Positions 34,324 through 37,189 of a stretch of 64,000 nucleotides of DNA are shown in pieces (position 1 is the stretch's first letter; every line of letters starts with the position of its first letter). The position numbers and the translations under genes were made by a program. The notes below the pieces were generated by a model, which worked only from the letters and a program-made list of their open reading frames with translations, was not told the origin of the DNA and made no database searches. The stretch spans positions 44,172-108,171 of the forward strand of contig JAFGGO010000061.1 of NCBI GenBank assembly GCA_016930515.1. Direction: 5' to 3'. This DNA is from Promethearchaeota archaeon. Lineage in GTDB: Archaea > Asgardarchaeota > Lokiarchaeia > Sigyniarchaeales > SOKP01.

Positions 34324-34740
34324 TTAAGGAAGGGAATTTAGAAAAGCATTAAATATTTGTTGAGTTGCCTCGGGTAGATCCTTTATAATTTTTCTTACTT
34401 TTTCTTCAAAATCTTGTTTTGATCCCGTTTCTTTTAAAACATAATTGTCAATATCCTTGAAAACGCTAACTATCTTCTCGTAAGCCATAATGATATTGTC
34501 GAGATTCTTGCTAACGTTTATCTTCCAATCTGCGTCTAAATCGGACTTTTTCTTGTCCTTGTCTTTATCCTTGTCCTTATCTTTCTTGTCTTTATCCTTG
34601 TCTTTATCCTTGTCCTTATCTTTCTTGTCTTTATCCTTGTCCTTATCTTTCTTGTCTTTATCCTTGTCCTTATCTTTCTTGTCTTTATCCTTGTCCTTGT
34701 CTTTCTTGTCTTTATCCTTGTCTTTATCTTCTTTTCCCAT
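34324..34740 (-). CDS. Lys-Asp repeat protein with C-terminal helical domain
   Basis: MGKEDKDKDKDKKDKDKDKDKK... then DADWKINVSKNLDNIIMAYEKIVSVFKDIDNYVLK...; likely start MGKED at 34740. Confidence 0.7.
   Translation of the reverse strand: MGKEDKDKDKDKKDKDKDKDKKDKDKDKDKKDKDKDKDKKDKDKDKDKDKDKKDKDKDKDKDKKKSDLDADWKINVSKNLDNIIMAYEKIVSVFKDIDNYVLKETGSKQDFEEKVRKIIKDLPEATQQIFNAFLNSLP
34552..34735. repeat. Tandem repeat, about 27-nt unit (tctttatccttgtccttatctttcttg), encoding KDKDKDKKD-type repeats
   Basis: Visible direct repetition of tctttatccttgtccttatctttcttg with minor variants. Confidence 0.85.
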
Positions 34741-34850
34741 AAAAATCAACATAAAATAGTTTTAGTTCAAATAAGCTAAGTGTGTATTTAAATTTTGGTT
34801 TAGTCTAAAAAATCAGATTTATTTAATATATTTTAAAGACTCTTTTGTTT

Positions 34851-35310: not shown

Positions 35311-35880
35311 TCAAGCAACAAATTTTTCAATTGAATCTTGTTTTGAATTCGTCTTTTCATCTCTCTTTACAAGATGATCTAATAAAGAATAGAAGGTTTC
35401 TTTGATATTATAATTTGATTTTGCCGATGTTTTCATGTATCCAAAACATCGTTCATTACTCTCAACAATATGATTTGCAAACTTATCTAGATTAATATGG
35501 TTAGCGTCTTCCAAATCCGATTTAGTGCCTACGAGAAGAAGTGGAAAATCTCCTCTTTCCATCAATAAATTCATCCATCCTTCTATTCCCATTGAAGAAG
35601 CAAACCTAGAAAGGTCAAACAATAACATGGCACCAACGGCACCACTTATAAAATTTGGTAGCATGAATCGAAATTGCTCTTGGCCTCCAAAATCCCAAAA
35701 GATAACATTGTATTCATTGCCCTTGTGGTCGATTTTAATCGTCTTGCTAAAGAAACCGATACCTTTGGTCATGAGAGAATTATCGTCAAATATATCATTG
35801 ATGTATCTATCTAATAAGGAGGTCTTTCCAACGGCACCATCCCCAGCAACTATGATTTTAATTGTTTTAATTTGTTCCAT
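35311..35880 (-). CDS. Ras/Rab/Arf-like small GTPase
   Basis: IKIIVAGDGAVGKTSLLDRYI (G1), WDFGGQEQFR (G3), VGTKSDLE (G4), KTSAKSN (G5). Likely start MEQIKTIK at 35880 (ORF track end 35988). Confidence 0.9.
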   Translation of the reverse strand: MEQIKTIKIIVAGDGAVGKTSLLDRYINDIFDDNSLMTKGIGFFSKTIKIDHKGNEYNVIFWDFGGQEQFRFMLPNFISGAVGAMLLFDLSRFASSMGIEGWMNLLMERGDFPLLLVGTKSDLEDANHINLDKFANHIVESNERCFGYMKTSAKSNYNIKETFYSLLDHLVKRDEKTNSKQDSIEKFVA

Positions 35881-35977
35881 TTCAAGTAATGAATGGTGAA
35901 AATGGTTTTTAAAAATCAGTACAAACATGCTAGTTTCGTTATTATGAAACATACGATTTGAAAAAGAATATTTTTGA

Positions 35978-37189
35978 TCAATACCCAAAAACCATTACAA
36001 CTGTCATAATGGCACCTGATATTATTGGAACAGTAAAATTATCGTTCATATCAAGTGGTAATACCTCAGCAATAGGTGCAACAAGTCCTCCACAAATTAA
36101 TATGACTGGCGATATATCTAATAAGTGATACAAGATAAATCCAGTAATCAAAACGCTTCCGAAATAAGCTAGCGTGCCTTCAACCGTTTTAGTATTAAAT
36201 ATTTTATACTTTCCAAACGCTAAACCAAAAATTTTACTAAAAATATCGCCAAATATGAGAAATATTATTGAAATCATTGCGATATTTTTCTGGAACACGA
36301 GAATCGAGAAGAAACTAGCTAATAAAAAAATCGTCATTGAAGAAAAACACTTCTGTTCAGTTTTTCTAAATATGGATTTTATCTTTTCTGTTAAAAATTC
36401 ATTAGCCTGCTTCAAAACGAACCTAATTATATCAATAACAGTAAAGATTGCCGTTATAATCCCAATTAGAATTAATGTATTAATTAAGGAATTAAAAACA
36501 TAAAATACAACGAAAACGATCGCAAAAGGTCTTGCAGCAACCCTCCACCAGTATGTTTTAAAATTTTCATCCAAAATTACGATTTTTCGTTCTTTGATAA
36601 TTTTATATAAACCTACGATTCCAATATGAATGGTAATTAACAAAAAGATGATATTATATTGGGAATTGGCGTAGTAATAAAATATGCTGAAATCAAGAAC
36701 AGGAAACAATACTATTGGAAGTAGCGTACCAATTCGGGCAATATAATAGAAAATCATGAGAATAATGATAATATAACAAATAATTAGCAATATTACCAAA
36801 CTCTCTAAAAAATAGTTTATCAAGCAACAAAGTAAAATCCCCGTGGCAGTTGCAACGCCTTGACCGCCCTTAAATTTCAAATAAAAAGGAAAAACATGGC
36901 CTATAATAGTTGCAAGACCGGATAGTTGAATTACAAGGAAATTTGCTCCAAATAAAGAAGCAATTAACATTGCTAGAAGACCTTTAACTACGTCGTATAT
37001 TCCGGTAAGCATAGCATAAGGGAATCCGAGTACGAAATATGCATTGGAGGTTCCAGGGTTGCCAGTTCCATGGCATCTAATATCGATGTGCTTTATTTTT
37101 CCGAAGATATATGCTGGTAATATTGAGCCAATCAAATATCCTAAAAAAATACTCAATATACTTGCTGGGACATTAATATCAAAAGCCAA
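35978..37189 (-). CDS. Membrane fusion protein: PlsY-like glycerol-3-phosphate acyltransferase domain plus dolichol-kinase/phytol-kinase (CTP-transferase)-like domain
   Basis: 403 aa; N-term GYLIGSILPAYIFGK, CHGTGNPGTSNAY, GHVFPFYLKFKGGQGVATATG; C-term GDIFSKIFGLAFGKYKIFNTKTVEGTLAYFGSVL...APIAEVLPLDMNDNFTVPI. Confidence 0.82.
   Translation of the reverse strand: MAFDINVPASILSIFLGYLIGSILPAYIFGKIKHIDIRCHGTGNPGTSNAYFVLGFPYAMLTGIYDVVKGLLAMLIASLFGANFLVIQLSGLATIIGHVFPFYLKFKGGQGVATATGILLCCLINYFLESLVILLIICYIIIILMIFYYIARIGTLLPIVLFPVLDFSIFYYYANSQYNIIFLLITIHIGIVGLYKIIKERKIVILDENFKTYWWRVAARPFAIVFVVFYVFNSLINTLILIGIITAIFTVIDIIRFVLKQANEFLTEKIKSIFRKTEQKCFSSMTIFLLASFFSILVFQKNIAMISIIFLIFGDIFSKIFGLAFGKYKIFNTKTVEGTLAYFGSVLITGFILYHLLDISPVILICGGLVAPIAEVLPLDMNDNFTVPIISGAIMTVVMVFGY

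Follow-up and report, generated by a model that had tools for sequence, protein, structure and literature searches.

A PlsY domain with an altered acceptor site, joined to a CTP-transferase-clan domain in a putative lipid enzyme of a Lokiarchaeon

Introduction

What would a PlsY domain do in an archaeon when it is joined, within one protein, to a domain resembling dolichol and phytol kinases? The question is raised by a 403-aa protein encoded in the genome of a Lokiarchaeon (4.0 Mb, 94% complete), in a stretch of 64,000 nucleotides of contig 111 that is called here the window. The Lokiarchaeon is described as a close archaeal relative of eukaryotes. A 2026 paper used plsY and plsC of Asgard archaea to argue for possible bacterial-type lipids in these archaea (PMC13400652), and according to a review the role of PlsY and PlsC homologues in Lokiarchaea has yet to be elucidated (PMC9385802). 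A preliminary description of the window placed the gene in an archaeon and connected it to the debate on the lipid divide. The host is indeed archaeal, as the window encodes an actin (Pfam search, E 4e-132) and the closest full-length homologues of the protein are found in Candidatus Lokiarchaeota (L002-L005), and the relevance to that debate is upheld. A search of the open literature, which mostly leaves out subscription journals, yielded no publication that names a fusion of this kind.

Results

The gene (35978..37189, minus strand) begins with TTG and is a single uninterrupted frame running from 37189 to 35978. The fusion of a PlsY domain with a CTP-transferase-clan domain is confirmed as real, with full-length homologues and an AlphaFold2 model, and both domains and their order are those of the preliminary description (PF02660 and 5xj5 for the N half and a joint profile for the C half). 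Modelling of the whole protein, which had been suggested together with that description, gave a mean pLDDT of 86 and a pTM of 0.81, and the sole significant Foldseek matches of this model (E <= 0.001) are five PlsY structures. Fifty distinct homologues of full length, from both archaea and bacteria, rule out an assembly artefact or a merging of two genes, and their distribution rules out a single-genome oddity, with 41 Lokiarchaeal and nine bacterial sequences, the latter mostly from Aminicenantes.

The N half (residues ~10-190; 36620..37162, minus strand) has the PlsY fold. Residues 16-187 match PF02660 above the cut-off (E 6e-34), the Aquifex enzyme (aaPlsY, 5xj5) is found in the PDB with an E-value of 3e-19, and Foldseek matches the AlphaFold2 model of the whole protein to 5xj7 (E 5e-6, probability 1.00). 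With the TIGR00023 equivalog model, the protein scores 105 bits, below the 137 required. Compared with PlsY (PF02660/TIGR00023; aaPlsY structures 5xj5-5xj9), the fusion shares the fold, the length, the positions of motifs 1 and 2 and an invariant acyl-phosphate pocket, but it differs in the G3P clamp (S35, R45, K104), in lacking motif 3 (H177/N180) and in the added C-terminal domain.

In aaPlsY, H92 and T41 hold the acyl-phosphate together with loop 104-107, which acts through its backbone, and the G3P site comprises a phosphate clamp (S35, R45, K104 and N180) together with S142 and H177, the last of which contacts the 2-OH (PMC5700162). Alanine at any of the four clamp positions removes more than 92% of the activity, R45K more than 90%, and K104R about 75% (PMC5700162). 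In the window's protein, motif 1 (residues 41-52, GTGNPGTSNAYF; 37034..37069, minus strand) has T42 and F52 at aaPlsY positions 35 and 45, and motif 2 (residues 97-114, GHVFPFYLKFKGGQGVAT; 36848..36901, minus strand) keeps the acyl-phosphate hole, with Q110 in place of K104; motif 3 is missing in the alignment. The signature NPGTSNA...GGQGVAT by which PlsY had been recognized does belong to a PlsY domain, but it is itself the carrier of S35T, R45F and K104Q (aaPlsY numbering).

The same pattern extends to the family of fusions. H92, G102, G103 and G105 are invariant in all 50 and A107 occurs in 49, the exception in this pocket being the acyl-carbonyl contact T41, which is variable. The K104 position is occupied by Q in 39 fusions, R in 6, K in 4 and E in 1, as against K in 71 of 71 bacterial PlsYs, a set, largely of Bacillota, that was gathered with peptide patterns taken from the query. 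R45 is retained as R in 15 of the 50, S35 also drifts, and some copies still have K or R at clamp positions. Judged with one strict pattern for both sets, motif 3 occurs in none of the 50 fusions and in 56 of the 71 bacterial proteins, although an Asn near the N180 position persists in many aligned fusions. These residues show the loss of the G3P clamp and the conservation of the acyl-phosphate pocket in the PlsY domain of the fusion. Among stand-alone PlsYs from other Asgard lineages, K104 is present in 14 of 20 and motif 3 in 11 of 20, and since near-canonical forms are among them, the change in the G3P site belongs to the fusion and not to Asgard archaea generally.

The C half (residues ~208-403; 35981..36568, minus strand) has no Pfam match when the window's sequence is searched alone. 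A profile built from the fusions matches stand-alone Asgard proteins of 213-233 aa (E 1e-22 to 1e-24), one such relative lies above the cut-off of PF01148 (CTP_transf_1, 2.4e-7), and a joint profile of fusions and stand-alone relatives finds the CDP-DAG synthase of T. maritima (4q2e, 3.8e-5) over D..G..FGR..K(S/T)xEG. Foldseek did not resolve the C half in the model of the whole protein and did so only weakly in a model of the C half (pLDDT 87), whose top match is CdsA (4q2g), with a probability of 0.97 but an E-value of 0.12. Support for homology is good in sequence profiles and moderate at the level of the fold.

Seven residues of the C half (R216, R220, E278, S283, E375, D383 and N384) are invariant in the 50 fusions, and D315, K334, E337 and G338 are each present in 49. 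The signature G314-D315...K334-T-V-E337-G338 (36176..36250, minus strand), which aligns with the CdsA motif, is kept in 48-49 of 50 at each position, and E375...D383-N384 (36038..36067, minus strand) in all; the series of GD, K(S/T)xEG, E and DN is complete in the window's copy, and each of its residues is found in 48-50 of the 50 fusions. What had been described as a DGK1/SEC59/VTE5-like signature is near-invariant in this GD–K–EG–E–DN part. The charged RK..H clamp is known from a prenol kinase (PMC10849223), and its equivalent, R216-V-A-A-R220 in the window (36530..36544, minus strand) and R-[VLTIM]-x-x-R in the fusions, keeps the R, has lost the K and has R instead of H in 50 of 50.

From its motifs, the C half is apparently an intact CTP-using domain of the lipid-kinase type, and it is probably active in CTP-dependent lipid phosphorylation; the copy from Caldiserica (L010), which is without the D, K, E and G, may be inactive. 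With the SEC59-VTE5-DGK1 dolichol/phytol/diacylglycerol kinases it shares a predicted 7-helix domain and the GD...FGK...K(S/T)xEG...E...DN motif, but it differs in the R-hydrophobic-x-x-R clamp, in its position behind PlsY and in having no Pfam match of its own. CdsA, the CDP-DAG synthase (4q2e/4q2g), has the same core CTP-transferase motif and is the best match among solved folds, but the C half is shorter and the similarity is low. Mutagenesis of the CTP-transferase motif of DGK1 was not found in the open literature searched. In other Asgards, a domain of this clan is fused to a HAD-type phosphatase, giving a putative phosphatase plus kinase (L145:495-1742 and L147:286-1572, both minus strand). 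As for topology, loops L1, L3, L7, L9 and L11 are rich in K/R and loops L2, L4, L6 and L12 have almost none, and by this loop charge the motif loops of both halves lie on the same side, which is expected to be that of the cytosol.

Named genome records yielded nine fusion loci, four from Lokiarchaeota, two from Aminicenantes and one each from an unclassified bacterium, a Mesoaciditoga and a Caldiserica, and a search of 228 genomes across the Asgard phylum found further ones. In the phylum of the Aminicenantes genome, the fusion occurs in 6 of 396 genomes, one copy having an internal stop. A search of the Lokiarchaeal class (83 genomes) found 43 of the 47 PlsY-domain matches of the window's family in frames of 392-433 aa, the other four being three fragments and one divergent 273-aa protein. 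A fusion-length copy is present in 31 of the 65 genomes of this family, and several genomes with a completeness of 98-100% lack one; therefore, the gene is accessory. Tandem copies are common in Lokiarchaeia, and there are three in a row in L002 and L004, another gene separating the second and third in L002.

A tree of the N domain, from a short search, unites the fusions in one group (SH-aLRT 99) that also holds a stand-alone Aminicenantes protein (L170), and within the tree the Lokiarchaeal fusions are one group with a support of 100, while the stand-alone PlsYs of Asgards are placed elsewhere. The Lokiarchaeal fusions are likewise one group in the C-domain tree, which requires just one switch between fused proteins and the rest. 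The phylogeny is consistent with a single fusion, and its simplest reading would be one fusion event followed by one entry into Lokiarchaeia, the direction from bacteria to Lokiarchaeia being our inference; an origin inside the Asgards from their stand-alone PlsYs is unsupported by the N-domain tree. Two other arrangements of PlsY also occur. A stand-alone PlsY-like protein of Aminicenantes (L007:6236-6847, plus strand) has K104Q and no motif 3, and in the same taxonomic order as the window a 1025-aa protein (L207:3369-6443, plus strand; family f3) joins PlsY to PPDK_N and PEP-utilizers domains, a PEP-synthase-like phosphotransferase, the PlsY and PEP-synthase-like parts being adjacent genes in L208 (260-3000).

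The small Ras-family GTPase (35311..35880, minus strand; 189 aa from its ATG; PF00071, E 2e-33) that was said to overlap or abut the fusion is real and on the same strand, but the overlapping 225-aa form requires a TTG start; with the ATG at 35880, where the conserved domain begins, the GTPase gene lies 97 bases downstream of the fusion. A motif scan found a small GTPase at 1 of the 50 fusion loci, that of the window alone, many of the flanks being only about 1.5 kb long. A functional operon with the GTPase was rejected on this count, and the two genes are best regarded as neighbours of local occurrence. Also in the window, at 34324-34752 of the minus strand, a protein has a long KDKDKDKK repeat before a short tail. 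Many Lokiarchaeal genomes share an order of TFIIB, fusion(s), a protein of ~250 aa and prolyl-tRNA synthetase (L002, L004, L150-L155 and L158; names by reading sequence), which argues for vertical inheritance and says nothing on function. The ~250-aa protein, which starts with MSYIEKKY and has no Pfam match, occurs in many of these genomes (for instance, L002:4184-4984 and L150:7571-8314). In one bacterium (L007) the fusion lies directly before the PlsY-like gene mentioned above, FakA and a DegV/FakB protein; a conserved FakA/FakB operon was rejected, as it is found in L007 only and gap-pgk-tpi follows the fusion in most of the remaining Aminicenantes.

A search for plsX, plsC, GGGP synthase and the glycerol phosphate dehydrogenases had been suggested with the preliminary description. 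Neither PlsX (PF02504) nor DegV/FakB (PF02645) was found in any of 21 genomes, the window's own and 20 relatives, in which the controls were positive, so that the search, which covered these two, turned up no known source of acyl-phosphate in Lokiarchaeia. FakA/FakB and PlsX supply the acyl-phosphate that the PlsY pocket binds, and their folds differ from that of the fusion. A PlsC-type acyltransferase is present in 20 of the 21 genomes; that of the window's genome has 564 aa and two such domains. Double-acyltransferase proteins of this type (550-583 aa) occur in most of the Lokiarchaeal relatives searched (L180:8287-9978, minus strand, in the window's own genome, contig 137; also L183), the gene adjoining one that looks like a relative of the 2-hydroxyacyl-CoA dehydratase activase. 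GGGP synthase is likewise encoded in the window's genome (1e-52). An archaeal lipid cluster (L160 and L177, in contig 124 of the window's genome; names by reading sequence) holds CTP_transf_1-like, geranylgeranyl-reductase-like, GGGP synthase and UbiA-like genes, with the GGGP synthase between the geranylgeranyl-reductase-like and the UbiA-like gene. As for G1P dehydrogenase, the PF13685 matches in the window's genome are assigned by NCBIfam to generic iron alcohol dehydrogenases. G1P dehydrogenase has been reported for Lokiarchaeota, and no G3PDH/gps in Loki- or Thorarchaeota (PMC6737245). Thus, these searches of pathway genes found the greater part of the archaeal ether-lipid route and did not find a complete PlsXY route. 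In the two fusion-bearing bacteria whose genomes were read, a separate canonical PlsY is kept (L171, beside a gpsA-like gene, and L172), and so the fusion probably does not serve as the housekeeping enzyme in these bacteria.

Discussion

We tentatively favour, at somewhat less than even confidence, a membrane lipid enzyme with two cytosolic sites, one of which would acylate some acceptor that is not G3P and the other would phosphorylate with CTP. The N half would offer a PlsY fold with a pocket for acyl-phosphate or a similar lipid phosphate, the C half would be a CTP-dependent phosphotransferase of the dolichol/phytol/diacylglycerol-kinase kind, and the two would probably work one after the other on a single lipid; because the G3P clamp is gone, the acyl acceptor is most likely other than G3P. 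Catalysis by both halves, the donor and acceptor, and the coupling are what we infer. In favour of this two-site enzyme are the kept acyl-phosphate pocket next to the altered clamp, the tight constraint on the C half, the motif loops on one side, the trees in which the Lokiarchaeal fusions stay together and, for the N domain, apart from the stand-alone PlsYs of Asgards, the separate canonical PlsY of fusion-bearing bacteria, and FakA with DegV/FakB beside the fusion in L007. Several observations weigh against it: residues by themselves are no proof of a changed acceptor, K or R remains at the clamp of some copies, T41 varies, no known source of acyl-phosphate was found in Lokiarchaeia, FakA/FakB lies beside the fusion in one genome only, and the C half is without the K and H of its clamp. 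A more specific version is a route to lysophosphatidic acid that needs no G3P, in which the N half would use acyl-phosphate to acylate glycerol or another neutral polyol, the C half would phosphorylate the product with CTP and the double PlsC protein would add the second chain. It appears to us highly improbable; if it were true, ester phospholipids could be made in an archaeon without G3P.

Two other readings concern the N half. The N half may not be an enzyme at all, but a lipid-phosphate binding or handling part of a CTP-dependent kinase of prenol, dolichol or another lipid alcohol, with the phosphate hole holding the product. Conservation of the hole and not of the acceptor site, the near-invariant kinase-type motif, the missing acyl-phosphate source and the finding that in L145 and L147, from other Asgards, a C domain of this kind has a HAD phosphatase as its partner all speak for it; nevertheless, the whole of motif 2 (GHxFPxY...GGxGxA) is kept in 50 copies and resembles that of an active transferase, and other CTP_transf-like proteins of the genome (L159, L160) make an extra prenol kinase not obviously needed. 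We regard this reading as unlikely, if still the most credible of the rivals. The preliminary description saw a genuine PlsY making bacterial-type LPA from G3P with a CTP-dependent kinase attached. The match to PF02660 is well above the cut-off, a few copies retain K104 or R45 and a double PlsC protein is at hand for the second acylation, but the clamp is altered at positions where mutagenesis causes a strong loss of activity (PMC5700162), motif 3 is absent, PlsX and FakB are missing, no G3PDH/gps is reported for Loki- or Thorarchaeota (PMC6737245), and the gene is intact in only 31 of 65 family genomes and lacking even in several with a completeness of 98-100%, so that it does not encode a core enzyme of the membrane. 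The claim is thereby weakened, and we consider it quite unlikely.

The remaining alternatives concern the reaction of the C half. It could make acyl-phosphate from a fatty or prenoic acid and CTP for immediate use by the N half, in place of PlsX or FakAB, a proposal that suits the absence of PlsX and DegV and the phosphoryl-transfer partner of PlsY in the L207 protein of the same taxonomic order. However, those relatives of the C half that have been characterised are known to phosphorylate alcohols and not carboxylates, and one fusion-bearing bacterium has another acyl-phosphate route in its adjoining FakA/FakB, so that such a self-supplying enzyme is very unlikely. The C half could also be a CdsA-like synthase producing an activated CDP-lipid, as the nearest solved structure is CDP-DAG synthase (4q2e/4q2g). 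This match does not discriminate between kinase and CdsA because no solved kinase of the clan was matched in the PDB, and in sequence the C half is closest to short proteins that stand alone and carry the prenol-kinase RK..H motif; the chance of a synthase is slim indeed.

Nearly every PlsY domain in the window's Lokiarchaeal family is this fusion, which groups with the bacterial fusions and not with the stand-alone PlsYs of other Asgards. Because a fusion with a changed G3P site is nearly all the PlsY there is, the 'PlsY' genes of the family should not be taken to prove bacterial-type membranes. The presence of PlsY is thus weakened as evidence for bacterial lipids in this family, and there is one defined protein on which to focus.
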